A stretch of DNA of 64,000 nucleotides, from the NCBI GenBank assembly GCA_002050165.1, contig MWSW01000012.1:434001-498000 (forward strand). The letters are read 5' to 3'. Positions within the stretch are counted from its first letter, which is position 1; each line of letters opens with the position of its first letter. Position numbers and translations under genes: made by a program. Source of the DNA: Candidatus Tepidiaquacellales bacterium OLB4/UTCHB1. GTDB taxonomy: Bacteria; Bacteroidota; Ignavibacteria; Tepidaquicellales; Tepidaquicellaceae. Under the pieces are notes generated by a model. The model saw only the letters and a list, made by a program, of their open reading frames with translations. It was not told where the DNA came from and did not search any database. Positions 1-10,520 of the stretch are shown one piece after another.

Positions 1-771
1 GAATACATCAGTTTTACCGGTTCATTAGATACATTACCGTTCATCGGTAAACTCGGAATTACCAACTTCCTTAAATCACTGAACAACTGGTATTCAGTTT
101 ACCGATTTAGCTCGAATGTTAACGTGGAATACACGCTCTTCTCAAAAGATACAACAATAACAATTGACACACTTACACTTCCGATAAGATTTTCGTATAA
201 AGCTAAAAGACTAAATGATGAACAGGTAAACACTGTTGTCGGAGTTTACAATGCGAAGAAATTTTTGCTTTACAACACGATTTCATATTTGCTAATTATA
301 AACCCGTTACCGCCAATAGAAATACCGATAGTTAAGCAATATGACACAACCTGGTTTGCAGAGAACATTTGGTTAATCAAGCGCTCAGTACCAAGCACAA
401 TTGTGGATCTTAGTAAACTTGGTATTCCGGTATCATTTTTCATCCCGGGATATTTGCTCGAGGTAACCAACTCGAGTCAGGTAAAGACAATTTCAAATGA
501 AATTCCAGATGGGTTATGGTTACGGCAAAATTATCCGAACCCGTTCAATCCGGTTACTGTTATTAATTTTTCCGTACCGGAATCAGGCAATGTGAAACTT
601 ACACTTTACGACATGAATGGTAGGGAAATAGCGAAGTTAATAAACGGTGATTTCCGGATTGGTGAGTATAGTTATACTCTTGACGCGTCAGGATTAACCA
701 GCGGAGTTTACGTTTATAAACTTGAAACGAACGGATTTGCGCTCTCAAAGTATATGGTACTTTTAAAATAA
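1..771 (+). CDS. Secreted protein with type IX sorting domain, 5' truncated
   Basis: The frame is open from the first base of the window, so the gene begins upstream; the GTG at 124 is internal. About 256 residues are visible. The last 80 or so residues form a Por/type IX secretion C-terminal sorting domain: QNYPNPFNP, then a beta-rich stretch with LTLYDMNGREIAKL, and a final SGVYVYKLET...MVLLK. In this family the domain directs export across the outer membrane and is then removed or used for anchoring. The upstream part is beta-rich and I do not recognise a catalytic domain. A hairpin terminator follows at 795-829. Confidence 0.85.
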   Translation, partial: EYISFTGSLDTLPFIGKLGITNFLKSLNNWYSVYRFSSNVNVEYTLFSKDTTITIDTLTLPIRFSYKAKRLNDEQVNTVVGVYNAKKFLLYNTISYLLIINPLPPIEIPIVKQYDTTWFAENIWLIKRSVPSTIVDLSKLGIPVSFFIPGYLLEVTNSSQVKTISNEIPDGLWLRQNYPNPFNPVTVINFSVPESGNVKLTLYDMNGREIAKLINGDFRIGEYSYTLDASGLTSGVYVYKLETNGFALSKYMVLLK

Positions 772-794
772 AATTTGTCTGTAGTATAAAATAG

Positions 795-829
795 AAAATC
801 TCTTTCATCTTGCGGTGAAAGAGATTTTT
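795..829. terminator. Bidirectional intrinsic terminator
   Basis: A 13-bp perfect stem (795-807 with 816-828) is flanked by A-rich sequence on the left and a T-run on the right. It lies between the convergent ends of the sorted protein gene (+) and the barrel gene (-) and can serve both. Confidence 0.8.
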
Positions 830-850
830 CCGTTATACGATTAATTTACT

Positions 851-1570
851 TTACAGACCAAATCTTACACCAGTAAAGAATCCGTAATTAAGCGTGCTGA
901 TAGATTTTGCAATATCGGAGCTACCGAGATTATTTAAACCACCATATTGAAGTTTCGTCCCTAGAATTACGCTGGTAAACGGTGCGACAAGATAATCGGC
1001 GGTTAAAGTTCCGTTTAAACCCAGATCAAAGTTTTTATAACCAAGCCCGACTTTTTCATCCGTAGAAATTAAAAACCCAAGGTACGGACCACCGTTAAAG
1101 GTAACGCCTAACTTTTCGGTTATCATCCCACCGAAGTTGAAATTTAGCGGTATGTTGAGATACTGGTTACTTATATCAACAGTAGTATCAGTTGAACCGG
1201 CTAAAACCGGTGCATTTACTTTGAAATTTTTTCCGGCGAAATCAAGCCCGGATGAAAATTTAACTACATCAAATAAATCCAGATAAAAAATTGCCGCGCC
1301 GTTAAATCCTGCTTTTGAATCTGAAGACACATTGCTAACGCCGGGTTGTGATTTAATATCGGCATTGGTTATACCAACTCCCAACTGTAGGTCAATATAG
1401 AAATCAATTACTTTGCCTGCCTTCTGATCATGTTCGCGTTTAGCTAATGATAAATTTCTGTCAAGGTAATCCTGCTTATAATTTTTATTGCCCGTACCGT
1501 CACCTGCCATTAACGAACCACAAGTTAAAAAAAATATTATTACGAAATGTAATATTTTTGTTCTGTCCAT
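851..1570 (-). CDS. Outer-membrane beta-barrel protein (PorT-like)
   Basis: A 239-residue protein with an N-terminal signal peptide (hydrophobic residues about 6-22, ending near MAGDG). It is followed by alternating hydrophobic/polar strands with many aromatic and glycine residues and ends in GVRFGL, typical of small eight-stranded outer-membrane barrels of Bacteroidota. No enzymatic motif is seen. It lies 9 bases downstream of the ABC-F gene on the same strand, so the two are probably co-transcribed. Its role is unknown; the PorT-like label describes the fold only. Confidence 0.7.
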   Translation of the reverse strand: MDRTKILHFVIIFFLTCGSLMAGDGTGNKNYKQDYLDRNLSLAKREHDQKAGKVIDFYIDLQLGVGITNADIKSQPGVSNVSSDSKAGFNGAAIFYLDLFDVVKFSSGLDFAGKNFKVNAPVLAGSTDTTVDISNQYLNIPLNFNFGGMITEKLGVTFNGGPYLGFLISTDEKVGLGYKNFDLGLNGTLTADYLVAPFTSVILGTKLQYGGLNNLGSSDIAKSISTLNYGFFTGVRFGL

Positions 1571-3632: not shown

Positions 3633-5681
3633 TTATTTTATTAGCAGCATTCGCCTAACCTGTGTAAAGCTACCGGCATCCAACCTGTAATAATATACCC
3701 CGGACGCGAAGTTCACTGCGTTCCAGACAAATTCGTATGAACCTTCCGATAAATTTCCGTTTTGAAGTGATGCTACTTCTTTACCGAGTTGATCGAAAAT
3801 TTTCAAAGTTACATGTCCTGCAAACTGCTCAGGTAGTGTAAATGAAATTGTAGTAGCCGGATTAAACGGATTCGGAAAATTTTGCCCCAGAACAGGCTGA
3901 TTTAATTCAGCAAGAGTTTCCTCTTCTGTTTCCGGTTCAGACATGGTTATGATTTGATCCGTTTGTTCAAACGGCAATTCAATGTAACTTTGGTACAAAT
4001 ACAATTTGTGATTTCCACCGTCCATTGATGGTAATACGTGTGGACAATTACCTAAAAATTTTCTGTCGTCAGCGTGTCTGTCAAGATTTGTTATTCTTAC
4101 CAGAATTTTACTTCCACTTTTGAAAATGTGTGCATGAGAATTTCCCTCAACTTCAACAGTCTTCATTGTATTCGGTGTGTAATCTCTGTCGGTATAATTG
4201 ATCCTGTTTACAAGATATTCTTCACCGGTTGAAGTCTTTTCAATTATGTGAAAATTAAACTGTGGGAGACTGGATTTTGAACTATAAGTTATCTTGACTT
4301 TTGGAGTACCGATCATCTTTTGGTCAATTGTTAACGGAGTTGTGGTTAAAAAATCACGTGAACTTACAAGAAACTTTTTGCTAAAGTCTTCACCAACAAA
4401 ATCATCATAAATTGCATCCCGTAGAGAATAATGGGGATTAATTTTATTTATTAAAACAACTTTTGCATCCCTGTTTCTGACTGTTCTTGAGGCCAGCCTC
4501 GATTTGGAGTAAAAATAAAGTTTAGTTGGGGTAACACCTTCCGGGGGCCAGACATCAGACGATCCATGTTCAAAACTCCACATGTTTCCATTTCTCGGTA
4601 AGGTTGTGTAGGCATAATTATACATCGGATAAGTTGTATATGTCCACTTCCACAAGTACTGATTGAAGAAATTGTTAAAGTAAGCCATGTGCCATTGATT
4701 CTCTGTATAGGAAGTATCGCCACCATGACCCATAACTGCTCCGAAGTAAAACGTTCGCGGAAAGGTTAGAAACGGAATTGAATTAATTCCCTGTTTGGTG
4801 TTAAAGAAATAATCCTGCCAGGAATTTTCAACCAACACAGGCGTTTGATTGTATTGAACAAGATTTTCAAAATCCCTGTCAATCGGCATCCAGTAGGCAA
4901 GGCTATCCCACTTATCATTTTTTTGTCCGGTTTCATAAATCCAATCCGACATTGCCTCTGTAAGCGGATTGTATCTTACCATATTATTGGGATACTCAAG
5001 CGACCATAACAATGTCATTTTAACACTGCCATTTTCAATCCAGCTACTTGCAAATTGAGGGGAAGTAAGTGCAGAAATTATTCCGCTGACTTTCATACCC
5101 ATCGAAGCTGCCATATACGGTAAAGTTCCACCTTGAGAACCACCCATAATAAGAATCTTGTTTGTATCAGATCCGGTCAAATCTTTTTCACTTTTGAAAT
5201 GATTGACAAGTTCTATTAAATCCTGTGCTTCTGTTCTGCTTATTAAATTTGACTGACCGCCGGAATTTCCTTGTCCCCTGACGCTGAATGTATAAACAAC
5301 ATAAAAGTACTGAGCCTGCGCAGACGCGAAATGCGCAAGCGTCTCCTTTCGATCGCCGTAGCCATGCACCATTATTACAATTGGGTAACCATCCGGAAGG
5401 AATATATTAGGTTCATCGAGATAAAATCTTGAACAATCTATTAATGCACCATCGCTCATCGCCACAGTGAAATCCTGCTGAATAACGTTCGCCGTCGGAT
5501 TATCAGCCTGCGGAATTGGGCTTGGGAGCATTCGGTATTTGAAATTATCGAAATACCGTTGTTGCATTATTGGTTTTCTCTTATCCTGTGAGAAGGTATC
5601 CGAAGCGCTTAGAATAAGCAATAAAGTAACAAGAGCGCATAAAATACCTGTCGGAGAAAGTCTCCAAAATTTTAAGTCCAT
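3633..5681 (-). CDS. Secreted S15/CocE-type alpha/beta hydrolase with type IX sorting domain
   Basis: The 682-residue protein has an N-terminal signal segment (residues about 9-31). The hydrolase core has the oxyanion region VMVHGYGDR (104-111), nucleophile elbow GGSQGG with Ser182, and likely acid and base Asp290 (SWQDYFF) and His319 (MGHGGD). The layout matches the X-Pro dipeptidyl-peptidase S15/CocE esterase group; a beta-rich domain follows, as in that group. Residues from about 598 form a type IX sorting domain (QNFPNPFNP to RRMLLIK). It is therefore probably a cell-surface or released peptidase/esterase. The substrate is unknown. Confidence 0.82.
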   Translation of the reverse strand: MDLKFWRLSPTGILCALVTLLLILSASDTFSQDKRKPIMQQRYFDNFKYRMLPSPIPQADNPTANVIQQDFTVAMSDGALIDCSRFYLDEPNIFLPDGYPIVIMVHGYGDRKETLAHFASAQAQYFYVVYTFSVRGQGNSGGQSNLISRTEAQDLIELVNHFKSEKDLTGSDTNKILIMGGSQGGTLPYMAASMGMKVSGIISALTSPQFASSWIENGSVKMTLLWSLEYPNNMVRYNPLTEAMSDWIYETGQKNDKWDSLAYWMPIDRDFENLVQYNQTPVLVENSWQDYFFNTKQGINSIPFLTFPRTFYFGAVMGHGGDTSYTENQWHMAYFNNFFNQYLWKWTYTTYPMYNYAYTTLPRNGNMWSFEHGSSDVWPPEGVTPTKLYFYSKSRLASRTVRNRDAKVVLINKINPHYSLRDAIYDDFVGEDFSKKFLVSSRDFLTTTPLTIDQKMIGTPKVKITYSSKSSLPQFNFHIIEKTSTGEEYLVNRINYTDRDYTPNTMKTVEVEGNSHAHIFKSGSKILVRITNLDRHADDRKFLGNCPHVLPSMDGGNHKLYLYQSYIELPFEQTDQIITMSEPETEEETLAELNQPVLGQNFPNPFNPATTISFTLPEQFAGHVTLKIFDQLGKEVASLQNGNLSEGSYEFVWNAVNFASGVYYYRLDAGSFTQVRRMLLIK

Positions 5682-5714: not shown

Positions 5715-7403
5715 TTAATAGTGTTCGGTCGAATCCCAGACAACCTTATCTTTAGTTTGTCTGAAGACCTTGAACGCTCTTAATGTTGCGAATAGGTTTA
5801 CCACATTGTCAATCAACATTCTCGGTATGCTGAAAATCGCATACCTCAGTCCATACCAGTTATATGTGAATGCGAACCTTTGAAATACCCTAATGCACAT
5901 GAAGAACAGAGTTCCAATCACTAAATAATTCAGAGGCGAATTTCTGGGAATAATCCTTGGTAATAACGGATTACCTAACGCTGCTGAAACAAAGTACACT
6001 ATGAAATAAATCAATACTATGTAGGCGAGAAATGTACCCACCATAGCAAGTGGCGCTTTCCTGTCCCTCAACAGAAAATATTTTGTTTTAAGCGAACCTT
6101 TCCATCCGTAGATTTTAGCACCCTGGAAAACGATTCCGGCAATCCAGCGTGATTTTTGCTTTACGGAACCCCAAAAAGTATTCGGGAAATATTCACCCGT
6201 TGCAATCCTTGAGTTTCCATGCCTTGAATCTGTTTTAAGATTCACAAAAGATGTTTTATAACCTAACTTGTAAAACCTTAGCCCAAGCTCATAATCCTCA
6301 GTTAAGTTAGAATCATTGAAAATCTGGAATTTTTTCTTGTTGCGAAGGTTGATCTCACTTCTGCGCGGAATCATTACAACCGGCCGTTCCCTGCCTGTAG
6401 TTTTATCGGTTCCCTTCTCTAATACAAAATCATCGTCTAATTTCGGATGTTCAGGTCTCGGCTGTTCAGTAGTCTGCGTTTGAAGTTCATCAATCTGTCC
6501 GGACGAAGGCGAAACCCTGTGCATGACTTCATCTTTGGACAGGTCTTCTTTTAATAAATTCTGCTCTTTAAGTTGTGAATAAAATGAATCAAATAATTTT
6601 TTATAAAGTTCGTCTGAATGTTTGGCTTCATCTGTATTAGTCTTCCCTGATTCCTTAACCTTGTCGTCAACACCTTTAAGTTTCTCGGAAATTGAATCGC
6701 CAATAATCGAGTCCGTAGAATCTACTCCGGTTTGTTTTAAATGCTGGAGGTTCTCACTGAGATTTTTCAATGTGGAATCAATTTCATTTAACTTTTCATC
6801 CAATTCCCTTCCGGATGCGGGCAAGTTCTGCGAATCGTGCTGATCTTTGGATGAATCGGAATCCTTATATAAATTCTGAACCCGCTTCTCAATTTCAGAA
6901 ATCATCCCCTCAATATCTGAGTCCTCAAGTTCTCCCGAATGTTCTGTAAGAGTATCATCAGAAATATTCGTTATATCTATATCCGGTATAATTTTCTTCA
7001 TCGCAATCTCGTTGCACAACATCGAAAAAAGTTTGTAAAACAGACCGGTATTTTCAAGGAACTCCCGATAATCATCGAGCATCTGATCTTCAGGTAATAC
7101 ATCTCCGTATTTTAAATCAAGGAAACTTTGGTAACTCATTCTGTCGCTGACTTCATCCTTGAAGTTTACATTGAACATTTCCGCAAACTCCCTTAACACG
7201 GTAGATCTTACTAACAACCCGAAGTCAATTCCTCTGTAAGACACGAATTCGCCTGATTGGGACTTTAATATATTATAAACAGGTTCCCACTCCAACTCCC
7301 TTGTCAGCTTATCAAGTACTACCTTATCCTGCCTGAGGACATTGCTGACTTTTGTGATGTTGTCCCTTACTACTTCTGTATCTGTAAGATTTATGTTAAT
7401 CAT
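5715..7403 (-). CDS. C-terminal half of an NfrB-like family 2 glycosyltransferase, fused to an IS5 transposase-like N-terminal domain
   Basis: In the 562-residue protein, residues about 355-562 are the second half of a processive GT2 synthase: the acceptor-site acid in NLTEDYELGLRF (Glu369-Asp370), QKSRW (416-420) matching Q-x-x-R-W, then several membrane helices (about 450-470, 490-510 and a C-terminal segment). The first catalytic half, with the nucleotide-binding region and DxD-like motif, is absent and is encoded by the gene 12 bases upstream. Residues about 58-140 resemble the N-terminal domain of IS5/IS1182 transposases (SDRMSYQSFLDL, then a PEDQMLDDYREFLE stretch). Residues 145-320 are low-complexity and coiled coil. 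No DDE catalytic core is present. See findings. Confidence 0.75.
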   Translation of the reverse strand: MININLTDTEVVRDNITKVSNVLRQDKVVLDKLTRELEWEPVYNILKSQSGEFVSYRGIDFGLLVRSTVLREFAEMFNVNFKDEVSDRMSYQSFLDLKYGDVLPEDQMLDDYREFLENTGLFYKLFSMLCNEIAMKKIIPDIDITNISDDTLTEHSGELEDSDIEGMISEIEKRVQNLYKDSDSSKDQHDSQNLPASGRELDEKLNEIDSTLKNLSENLQHLKQTGVDSTDSIIGDSISEKLKGVDDKVKESGKTNTDEAKHSDELYKKLFDSFYSQLKEQNLLKEDLSKDEVMHRVSPSSGQIDELQTQTTEQPRPEHPKLDDDFVLEKGTDKTTGRERPVVMIPRRSEINLRNKKKFQIFNDSNLTEDYELGLRFYKLGYKTSFVNLKTDSRHGNSRIATGEYFPNTFWGSVKQKSRWIAGIVFQGAKIYGWKGSLKTKYFLLRDRKAPLAMVGTFLAYIVLIYFIVYFVSAALGNPLLPRIIPRNSPLNYLVIGTLFFMCIRVFQRFAFTYNWYGLRYAIFSIPRMLIDNVVNLFATLRAFKVFRQTKDKVVWDSTEHY

Positions 7404-7415
7404 TTTCGTATAAAC

Positions 7416-8861
7416 TTATCTTAGTTGTTCTCTTAATTTTGATGCAGAACTCAAAGCATCTTCGTAACTGTAATAATCACCCATGATAATTTTGTGCCAA
7501 ACTTTTCCGTCAATCTCAGTATCGGTGATTTTTAATGTTACATTACCGTTTAAAATTGTTTTTATCTTGTTTTGCCTCTCCTGCGCCAAACTTAGGGACT
7601 CCCAGGCTGATTCCTGAATTCTGTATTTCTGATTGGACAACTCTTCAAATACGACATTATATTCTCGGTTAGATAATGTATTCACTATATACGGTTCAAC
7701 CGGGACTTCAGGAGCTTTGTTATAACCCCTCTCAAGATTAGTTCTGATTGCAGGATATTTTTTCATGAAATACTCTTTATTTCTCATTATACCGGAACCT
7801 GCGGGAGTTACATTCTCGATTTCATCACTCCCGTTCGCACCATTATCTTCATCATTACCGGTTATTGAAAATACGTCATTACTTGCGTACAGACCAAATG
7901 CAAGTCCGAGAATTATTATTAATGTCCCAAGTATTGAATATTTCCGAAGCTCTGACTTAGGTTTTTGGTCATCAATTCGCTTTTGTTCATCATCCCAGCC
8001 GGGTATTGGAATATCTTCGTACTCAGGGTACAGATCGTTCGGTTTTTCAACATCCGGTGCGAAATGCTCTTGATCAGATTCTACATAAGATGTTCTGTCT
8101 TGCCTTTCAACAACACCCGTTCGCCTTTTCTCCATCTCAATTGATTGCGCTTCAAGGTAATGAAACGCTTTCCTGCTAAATGCCATGCCTGTTCCCGAAA
8201 ACGGGATGTATGATCCAATGGACTGTCGCACGATCATATCTTTAGTGTGAAGTTCAGCGAACGAATCACAGTAAGTTCTGTGAATCATTTTACCGAGCCG
8301 GCTTTTAATTGGAATAACCGGAATTTGAACTGCATAATTGCCCTTATACATTATAAGGTAGTTGAACAATTTCAGCGACAACGGATGGATAAAGTCTTCG
8401 GAATCGTGAATAAGTATGATATCAAATTCACCGAAGTGTTTCTCATATTCCTTAACACAGGTGAATGCGTTATTGAGGTTATCCGCTTTCGTAGTCGGAC
8501 CGTCGTTGGGGTTCAGACAAAGTATGACCCTGTGATCTTTTCTTGCGATTTCCCGCACAACTTTTACCGTAGGAAGATCGTTGGGATAAACTGCGAGAAA
8601 GAACCTGTAGTTTGAGTATCGCATTTTTTTCAAAGCGATTGTAAGAGTGCGCCCGATAACCTTATCTTCTTTCCATGCGCCAATCATTATTGCTATTGGC
8701 TTTTCGGCTTTCGAATTCATCTCAGAAAAACTCGGAAGGTTCTTTTTGTATTTTCTCCTGTTGAACCAGTAGAGAATATCAATAAACAAATCGTCGAGTC
8801 CGCTGATGATGATCAGAATTGCAGTAATCCAGAGCAGTATGTGAAAAAATTCGTAGATCAT
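7416..8861 (-). CDS. N-terminal half of an NfrB-like family 2 glycosyltransferase, fused to a SPOR domain
   Basis: In the 481-residue protein, residues 5-33 are membrane segments. Residues about 53-231 are the first half of a GT2 domain: IGAWKEDKVIG, KADNLN (125-130), the DxD-like HDSED (152-156) and SGTGMAFSR (222-230). The expected next elements (TED, QxxRW) are missing here and appear in the next gene. After residue 231 come an acidic linker, a transmembrane helix (about 309-325) and a C-terminal SPOR-like domain (about 410-481, YRIQESAWESLSLAQ to EDALSSASKLREQ). SPOR domains bind septal or denuded peptidoglycan in the periplasm. It lies 12 bases from each neighbour in an nfrA-like operon. 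Confidence 0.75.
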   Translation of the reverse strand: MIYEFFHILLWITAILIIISGLDDLFIDILYWFNRRKYKKNLPSFSEMNSKAEKPIAIMIGAWKEDKVIGRTLTIALKKMRYSNYRFFLAVYPNDLPTVKVVREIARKDHRVILCLNPNDGPTTKADNLNNAFTCVKEYEKHFGEFDIILIHDSEDFIHPLSLKLFNYLIMYKGNYAVQIPVIPIKSRLGKMIHRTYCDSFAELHTKDMIVRQSIGSYIPFSGTGMAFSRKAFHYLEAQSIEMEKRRTGVVERQDRTSYVESDQEHFAPDVEKPNDLYPEYEDIPIPGWDDEQKRIDDQKPKSELRKYSILGTLIIILGLAFGLYASNDVFSITGNDEDNGANGSDEIENVTPAGSGIMRNKEYFMKKYPAIRTNLERGYNKAPEVPVEPYIVNTLSNREYNVVFEELSNQKYRIQESAWESLSLAQERQNKIKTILNGNVTLKITDTEIDGKVWHKIIMGDYYSYEDALSSASKLREQLR

Positions 8862-8873
8862 AATTTTTTTCCT

Positions 8874-10520
8874 TTAGAGAAATGAATACAGATTGATTAA
8901 GAAACCGGCCTTGATTTGAAATGTCTCAGCCCTGTTATCGTCAAAATAAATTTTATTTGTTGCTTCAACAAAGATACTGGGAAATTCTTTTAAGTTTGGC
9001 TTGAAAGATAATCCACCGCCAACCTCAGCGTAATTATTATAGTCCAGTTTCTGTGAATCTTTAAATATTGATTGCTTAAGGTAAACTTCAAAGTTTGAAT
9101 AACCACCGGTCAGAAATCTTGCAACTTCCCTTAAAGTAACCTGTCCGAAAACGTTCTCATACTTGAGGTCATATAATCCCGCAGCGTATGCATCAATGTA
9201 AAGCGAAGTATTAGTAGAAGCGCCTGGTTTGAGGTAATCAACGTATTTGCCAAACCTGTTGGAAAATGTCAGTATTGGTCTGAGGTTGAACTTAGTCTCC
9301 TTTTTATCGAAGAGATTTACATATCCAGCCCTGAGCTCAAATGACAATTGCGGTGCAAAACTATACCTGTAAAATATTCCCGTTTCAATGTACCTGTCAT
9401 TGAGAGGCGCTTCGGGGGTTGATTTACTGTCAACGTAAAGATCAGCATAAACACCGGCTGACTGTCTCGGTGCAAAATTGTAACTGTATCTTCCAAGGAA
9501 GTTTGATATAAAGTTTTCCTGATAAGAATCGTAGATATTGTAAAAATAAATGTCAATTGCACTCTTACCAACTGAGCTAAACCTTGAAGTTGTGACCGAT
9601 AGATTATTGAATGCAGTTCTTGCGTCAATTCGCTGCTTGTCATCGAAAGAATTTTGTGCAACAAAACTAAAATACTCTCTGGCTTTTGAAATGTTCTCCG
9701 TTTCCGCATACAGATAAGCGAGTTGCATTTTCGTATTCATATCACCAGGATTTAAAGAGAGGTAATCTTCAAAAAGTGTAATTGCGCTTTGTTTGTTACC
9801 GGCTTGAAGCTCAGCGTAAGCAAGACTTAACTTGTCAGTGGTTGTAACCGGTGTATAAGTCGTTGTCTGCACTGGCGGATTTAATATGTTTCTAATTGAT
9901 GTAATTTCATCCCTGGCTGCGTTTGTCTCGGTTGTTAACGGTGAACTGGTTTCAATTATTTCAAAATACTTAATCGCATTGTTGTAATCTTTAAGCATCT
10001 TGTAAATGTACCCTAATTGCATTGCGACCTTCATGTCATTAGGGTTTTTGCTATAATAACTTTCGAACTTGGCAATAGCTTCACTGTACATTTTTTTATC
10101 GAGGAAGCTGTACGCTTGATCAAGTTCATTTAATTCCTTGGATTTTTGAAGCAAGAATAATTCGTCTTTTGCGTGTATCACCTGCTCATTATCAGTTGAA
10201 TTTAATGATACCATTTCAAACTCCCTCATTGCCTCAAACGTCCTGCCTTGACTTTTATAAAGATAAGCCAACTGCATTCTTACTGTCATGTCGGACGGGT
10301 CAGAGATTAAATGTTGCTCAAATATCCTAATTGCATCTGAATATTTACCTTCGTTAATGTAATCATAACCTAATTGAAGGTCTCCGTTTTGCGAAAACAC
10401 AAAACCTGGAATCATAAAGAATAATACTGCTATTATTGTAAAACCTGTTTTCATTTGAAATTTTGAGTTTTTCATCGGCTTTTTTTGTTTTTCCGGTTTC
10501 CCGGTTTTTGGTTCATACAT
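8874..10520 (-). CDS. NfrA-like TPR plus outer-membrane barrel protein
   Basis: A 548-residue protein with a signal peptide ending at FVFSQ (near residue 44). The start at 10520 gives a long N-terminal extension; ATG codons at 10475 and 10454 are plausible alternatives and none has a clear ribosome site. Residues about 48-305 contain three long TPR-like units, each with the same motif (DPSDMTVRMQLAYLYK, NPNDMKVAMQLGYIYK, NPGDMNTKMQLAYLYA). Residues about 310-548 are beta-barrel strands. TPR followed by a barrel is the plan of NfrA, PgaA and BcsC-type exporters. First gene of the nfr-like operon and probably the outer-membrane exit for its polysaccharide. Confidence 0.72.
   Translation of the reverse strand: MYEPKTGKPEKQKKPMKNSKFQMKTGFTIIAVLFFMIPGFVFSQNGDLQLGYDYINEGKYSDAIRIFEQHLISDPSDMTVRMQLAYLYKSQGRTFEAMREFEMVSLNSTDNEQVIHAKDELFLLQKSKELNELDQAYSFLDKKMYSEAIAKFESYYSKNPNDMKVAMQLGYIYKMLKDYNNAIKYFEIIETSSPLTTETNAARDEITSIRNILNPPVQTTTYTPVTTTDKLSLAYAELQAGNKQSAITLFEDYLSLNPGDMNTKMQLAYLYAETENISKAREYFSFVAQNSFDDKQRIDARTAFNNLSVTTSRFSSVGKSAIDIYFYNIYDSYQENFISNFLGRYSYNFAPRQSAGVYADLYVDSKSTPEAPLNDRYIETGIFYRYSFAPQLSFELRAGYVNLFDKKETKFNLRPILTFSNRFGKYVDYLKPGASTNTSLYIDAYAAGLYDLKYENVFGQVTLREVARFLTGGYSNFEVYLKQSIFKDSQKLDYNNYAEVGGGLSFKPNLKEFPSIFVEATNKIYFDDNRAETFQIKAGFLINLYSFL

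Follow-up and report, generated by a model that had tools for sequence, protein, structure and literature searches.

Glycosyltransferases that occur naturally as two subunits have been described for Alg13/Alg14 and the bacterial EpsE/EpsF, in which a single ancient gene was split and the active site lies between the subunits (PMC8993221, PMC9527342). These are MurG-like GT-B enzymes whose N- and C-terminal domains reside on separate chains. To my knowledge, GT-A synthases of the cellulose, hyaluronan, and poly-N-acetylglucosamine types are known only as single catalytic polypeptides. Here, I analyzed a stretch of 64,000 nucleotides (the window; contig MWSW01000012.1, positions 434,001 to 498,000, assembly GCA_002050165.1) of Candidatus Tepidiaquacellales bacterium OLB4/UTCHB1. 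It was found that two adjacent genes, hereafter A and B, jointly cover one GT2 glycosyltransferase (GT) and that the split is conserved in a clade. Thus, one GT appears in two subunits as in Alg13/Alg14 and EpsE/EpsF; in contrast to these, the A/B enzyme is a GT-A by Pfam and fold comparison, and a presumably processive membrane synthase is cut inside its single catalytic domain. I consider it about 85% probable that one membrane-embedded, processive NfrB-type GT2 polysaccharide synthase is made up of A and B as its two obligate subunits. Literature searches, whose coverage left out most subscription papers, yielded no description of a GT2/GT-A synthase divided within its catalytic domain. A first-pass annotation of this DNA had regarded a two-subunit GT-A synthase as new; this holds for GT-A within the literature searched, while two-subunit GT-B enzymes were already known.

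The closest described enzyme is NfrB of the Escherichia coli NfrBA exopolysaccharide system (PMC8669469, PMC8669472), in which D169, D267, and W330 are each required for function (PMC8669469). The NfrB model PRK11234 is tiled by the pair: A residues 5-239 match profile positions 8-247 (E 6e-56) and B residues 351-561 match positions 242-470 (E 1e-38). Since the two profile pieces adjoin without a gap, no part of the catalytic domain is lost. Matches to GT2 models end at residue 239 in A and start at residue 347-361 in B. Both open reading frames (ORFs) lie where the first-pass annotation had put them, and the motifs and the PRK11234 match place the N-terminal half in A and the C-terminal half in B. 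In the alignment, A is 38% identical to E. coli K-12 NfrB over 243 residues and B is 37% identical over 204, with D169, D267, and W330 of NfrB falling on A-D153, B-D370, and B-W420. A also contains KADNLN, and the TED of B sits within NLTEDYELG. Spread over A and B, the DxD, TED, and QxxRW signatures are all present in 16/16 pairs. The pair and E. coli NfrB have in common the catalytic residues, a tetratricopeptide repeat (TPR) outer-membrane partner, and a linked UDP-N-acetylglucosamine (UDP-GlcNAc) 2-epimerase. Unlike NfrB, the pair has its GT domain split over two polypeptides, lacks the C-terminal MshEN cyclic di-GMP (c-di-GMP) domain, and has gained SPOR and transposase-like parts; no MshEN was detected in Pfam and NCBIfam scans, and B terminates after the GT C-half. 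Judged from the sequences, the A/B pair is a member of the GT2 family around NfrB, and since it consists of two chains without MshEN, it is not NfrB in the strict sense.

Is the split common among relatives? A and B each served as a query against 59 related genomes, and the loci were extracted. Sixteen adjacent A-B pairs with a common split site and gene order were found in 11 genomes, and in three more genomes (G004, G005, and G017) the halves lie on broken or frame-damaged contigs. All split loci fall within one family of uncultured Ignavibacteria, f1. In a class-wide survey of 391 genomes from 190 genera, the split was found in 14 of the 16 matching f1 genomes (eight genera), so that the conservation in Ignavibacteria that the first-pass annotation had suggested checking was borne out. 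Single genes were found in two f1 genomes of genus g16 and in every match in f2, f13, f17, f18, and f23. No split was found outside f1 among the 391 class genomes and no further one in a phylum sample of 395 genomes; a split that is short or strongly diverged could have escaped in both. The named records of the split form, obtained by an alignment-based profile search, are Ignavibacteria/Bacteroidetes metagenome-assembled genomes (MAGs); a single-sequence contig search for the split form gave nothing where the alignment-based search succeeded. Of the relatives recovered by the latter outside the split group, nearly all have both halves in one ORF (58 ORFs, g16 included). The part joining the halves in these single genes is about 5-17 residues long, and 44 in g16, a little shorter than the 20-40 residues expected in the first-pass annotation.

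The single-gene GTs of f2 and g16 (444-485 aa) are the closest homologues and share the operon order; their GT halves are 50-66% identical to those of the window. Unlike A/B, each is one ORF, with no SPOR and no transposase-like part. The first-pass annotation had named an uninterrupted gene in close relatives as evidence against a functional split. Such genes do exist, in the sister lineages (f2, and g16 of f1) only, as would be expected of an ancestral state that was unsplit.

Both halves have been maintained together. Among the split loci, the GT halves are 50-84% identical to those of the window, and the tail of A and the head of B about 22-36%. For close pairs, identity is 89-97% in each of the GT halves and 40-77% in the tails and heads. 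Where computable, dN/dS is 0.01-0.04 in the GT halves versus 0.06-0.23 in the tails and heads, values that are rough because dS is near or at saturation. The pairwise distances of the A-halves and the B-halves correlate with a mirror-tree r of 0.94. Strong purifying selection acts on the GT halves, which show no decay and are co-diverging.

I modelled A and B with AlphaFold2 (AF2) as one read-through chain, which was possible since the TAA of the window is in frame. When split and single-gene relatives were both in the alignment, the predicted local distance difference test (pLDDT) was mostly 85-97 over the two halves (mostly 85-97 in the N-half and 85-94 across most of the C-half). Superposed together, the halves fit single-chain BcsA (9b8v_E; Z 28.7, 378 residues, 3.7 A) and hyaluronan synthase (8sne_A; Z 26.5, 374 residues). 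Thus, both halves are predicted to lie in one GT-A fold, sharing 360-380 residues with BcsA cellulose synthase and hyaluronan synthase, each of which is, in contrast, a single catalytic polypeptide. PDB sequence searches gave nothing useful. The first-pass annotation had read the locus as two functional subunits rather than decay, and this agrees with the presence in eight genera, the purifying selection, the catalytic residues kept in all 16 pairs, the congruent divergence, and the predicted fold.

On this basis, A would give the nucleotide-sugar half of the GT-A fold, with HDSED, and the first membrane helix, and from B would come the channel helices, the QxxRW gate, and the helix with the TED general base. 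Encoded by adjacent and probably coupled genes, the proteins may join co- or post-translationally, restoring one active site that presumably works like NfrB and BcsA. The polymer made from a cytoplasmic UDP-sugar would be passed to the neighbouring TPR/outer-membrane protein. The synthase is probably tethered to peptidoglycan by the SPOR tail of A, and the B head probably aids docking. The features of the locus are collected in Table 1.

Table 1. Features of the split GT2 locus, in window coordinates (TM, transmembrane).
Feature	Coordinates	Strand	Remarks
S15-type hydrolase with C-terminal sorting domain, conserved last operon gene	3633..5681	minus	synteny
Gene B	5715..7403	minus	562 aa: variable head, GT2 C-half, TM helices
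C-terminal half of GT-A domain and TM helices (B 351-562)	5718..6353	minus	PF13632 6e-14; NfrB profile 242-470
QKSRW (B 416-420)	6144..6158	minus	W420 aligned to E. coli NfrB W330
TED (B 368-370)	6294..6302	minus	D370 aligned to E. coli NfrB D267
B head (B 1-350), fast evolving	6354..7403	minus	
PVVMIPR (B 341-347), immediately N-terminal to GT C-half	6363..6383	minus	candidate docking strand
IS5/IS1182 transposase N-terminal (DUF772-like) segment (B 55-137)	6993..7241	minus	NF033581 0.0042
TAA stop of A and 12-nt gap	7404..7418	minus	A and B share frame in the window
Gene A	7416..8861	minus	481 aa: GT2 N-half, cytoplasmic linker, TM helix, SPOR-like domain
SPOR-like domain (A 410-477), predicted periplasmic	7431..7634	minus	Pfam SPOR 0.003; AF2 pLDDT 76-91
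Additional TM helix in A tail (A 309-327)	7881..7937	minus	hydropathy
Y-x-[DE]-x-P motif around P285, A tail	7995..8021	minus	candidate docking motif; P285 in 94% of 17 A proteins
N-terminal half of GT-A domain with N-terminal TM helix (A 1-240)	8142..8861	minus	PF13641 1.3e-26
SGTGMAFSR (A 222-230), final conserved element ahead of split	8172..8198	minus	
HDSED (A 152-156), DxD-type site	8394..8408	minus	D153 aligned to E. coli NfrB D169
TPR protein, NfrA-like, conserved first operon gene	8874..10520	minus	TPR matches, synteny; outer-membrane barrel inferred

The regions outside the GT halves also have conserved elements. The tail TM helix is seen by hydropathy in 16/17 A proteins, and the SPOR profile (PF05036) matches 9/17 (best 2.1e-8); the match of the window A itself (0.003) is below gathering. 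P346 of PVVMIPR is present in 94% of 18 B proteins. Both this motif and that around P285 are surrounded by variable sequence, and none was seen in single-gene forms; the two are candidates for docking elements.

The window genome has one split locus only, and some other genomes have two. The second split paralogue (L065, L067, L071, L073, and L089) has no SPOR, B heads of about 120-150 aa, and different neighbours, and keeps all the catalytic motifs. A variant in G002 (L063:7109-10891) has an A of 315 aa without TM or SPOR, and a B of 924 aa with an acidic, coiled-coil-like head of ~700 residues that includes the transposase domain. In G004, B is frame-broken in both copies (L083:3071-6373 and L080:7337-10391), and at L083 the A tail (TM-SPOR) is a separate ORF of 174 aa. 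The breaks are probably MAG assembly or sequencing errors; otherwise, this is a three-piece variant.

The operon order of TPR/outer-membrane protein, GT, UDP-GlcNAc 2-epimerase, and S15-type hydrolase is common to split and unsplit forms. The TPR neighbour is retained in single-gene loci as well as in the main branch of the split ones. In E. coli, the NfrB product needs the epimerase WecB and was proposed to be a polymer of N-acetylmannosamine (ManNAc) (PMC8669472). By analogy with NfrAB-WecB, and since an epimerase is present in the operon of most relatives, the sugar substrate is probably UDP-ManNAc. In most split genomes, the TPR partner has a length of about 550 aa (window:8874-10520), compared with 325-350 aa and few or no TPR matches in single-gene genomes (L077:4306-5355). 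It seems that the exporter gained TPRs together with the split.

Could the two ORFs be debris of one synthase gene, either broken or produced by chimeric assembly? Taken by itself, the window would allow this, with its ORFs in one frame, one TAA between them, and transposase-like sequence between the halves. Against it stand the 16 like-arranged pairs in independent MAGs and the low dN/dS on both halves with all motifs intact. Assembly chimera and pseudogene were thus rejected, the latter in line with the first-pass annotation, and the chance of debris is close to negligible. It is also conceivable that one long polypeptide is made, the stop being bypassed by read-through or frameshifting or the parts being spliced, as the ORFs of the window share a frame and lie 12 nt apart. 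Among relatives, however, the gap is 6 to 60 nt long, the frame offset is 0, 1, or 2, and the gap of several in-frame pairs contains two to four stops. Because the frames and the intergenic stops vary in this way, read-through was rejected. A fusion would further conflict with the likely topology, in which SPOR is periplasmic and the B head cytoplasmic; as for splicing, no intein model matched in the family scans, and the tail of A consists of a TM helix and SPOR. A single chain is therefore very improbable. Somewhat less so, though still improbable, is that the halves no longer form one enzyme and that one or both have a separate role, such as a scaffold or regulator of another GT. The large new domains on both proteins would suit such roles, and in genomes with two split loci, subunits could in principle be exchanged. 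Yet both halves are conserved like an active enzyme, including DxD, TED, and QxxRW, the operon partners are unchanged, and the window genome has one locus.

Several points weigh against two obligate subunits of one synthase. All the split loci come from MAGs, and heterodimer formation and activity are inferred here. The near-saturated dS blunts the selection estimates. With split relatives only in the alignment, the AF2 model was weak (pLDDT 57, predicted TM-score 0.44), yet even this model, in favour of a joint fold, placed the TED segment of B on the core of A in its best alignments, for example that with WrtF (9oml_A; Z 15.5, 175 residues, 3.4 A, model range 53..885). The high-confidence model had single-gene homologues in its alignment, so that the joint fold was partly built in. 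Since these added relatives are one chain, the fit indicates compatibility and is not independent proof of assembly. SPOR is absent from the second paralogous branch and from G002, and is thus not needed for the split itself. The operon of the window lacks the epimerase, three of which are encoded elsewhere in the genome.

How did the two genes arise? The transposase-like part, merely hinted at in the first-pass annotation, is a real resemblance. IS5/IS1182 transposase N-terminal models match the B head in 7/18 members (best 1.5e-8), and DUF772 is above gathering in three of the B proteins (3.6e-9 in that of L066); the match of the window B head itself is weak (0.003-0.004). With the G002 head as a query, ORFs resembling transposases were retrieved from two of the class genomes. 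The similarity starts near the start of B and appears to end ahead of the DDE core, and no full transposase match was found in B. A helix motif, DLYKKLFDSFYxQL (window:6500-7100 and homologous B heads), resembles the helix that closes the transposase-like domain (LYDELFDKFYEQL); as a second copy of it, the motif looks like an internal repeat in the B head. In the best tree, the split loci form one group (77/86) with the g16 single gene outside as its neighbour; approximately unbiased (AU) tests did not reject placing g16 inside the group (p 0.07-0.23). The g16 loop is about 40 residues longer than that of f2, exactly at the split site (L075:5982-7439 and L076:6211-7668), so the g16 loop may be an intermediate, or the gene may have re-fused. 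A single origin of the split is probable, in a loop perhaps already enlarged in the ancestor. The simplest account would be the insertion of an IS5-type element into this loop of the ancestral gene, the start of the transposase becoming that of B.

A different origin, compatible with two working subunits, is a tandem duplication of the whole gene with complementary loss of opposite halves, the A tail being a degenerate C-half. The A tail, too, has a TM helix, and its motif NETSYHDDPFxSL resembles NDANLTEDYELGL, the best among all ungapped profile offsets. This resemblance is not significant, with an hhalign E of 0.46 between tail and C-half and an observed score below the mean of shuffled maxima, and a degenerate C-half in the A tail was rejected as a candidate. 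Insertion also accounts better for the transposase domain with which B starts, and I regard duplication and loss as rather unlikely. Such insertional fission recalls the split mitochondrial cox2 of Campsomeris, where two genes also encode complementary polypeptides and a mobile-element nuclease is suspected (PMC5374615); unlike the bacterial, clade-wide A/B pair, that case is mitochondrial, recent, and of a different enzyme.

If A and B are indeed two subunits of one synthase, a natural and long-conserved split inside the catalytic domain would amount to a ready-made split synthase and show that a chain break is tolerated in the loop ahead of the TED helix. A/B would then be a case of gene fission with the transposase fragment still attached. 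More speculatively, and with decidedly low confidence, the assembly of the halves of this obligate heterodimer, made by mobile-element fission, may have become a control point: the SPOR tail would place A at denuded peptidoglycan and the transposase-derived B head would govern docking, replacing the c-di-GMP control of NfrB. If so, polymer synthesis would be confined to the places and times at which the halves meet. The split may offer a way of switching polymer synthesis through subunit assembly.
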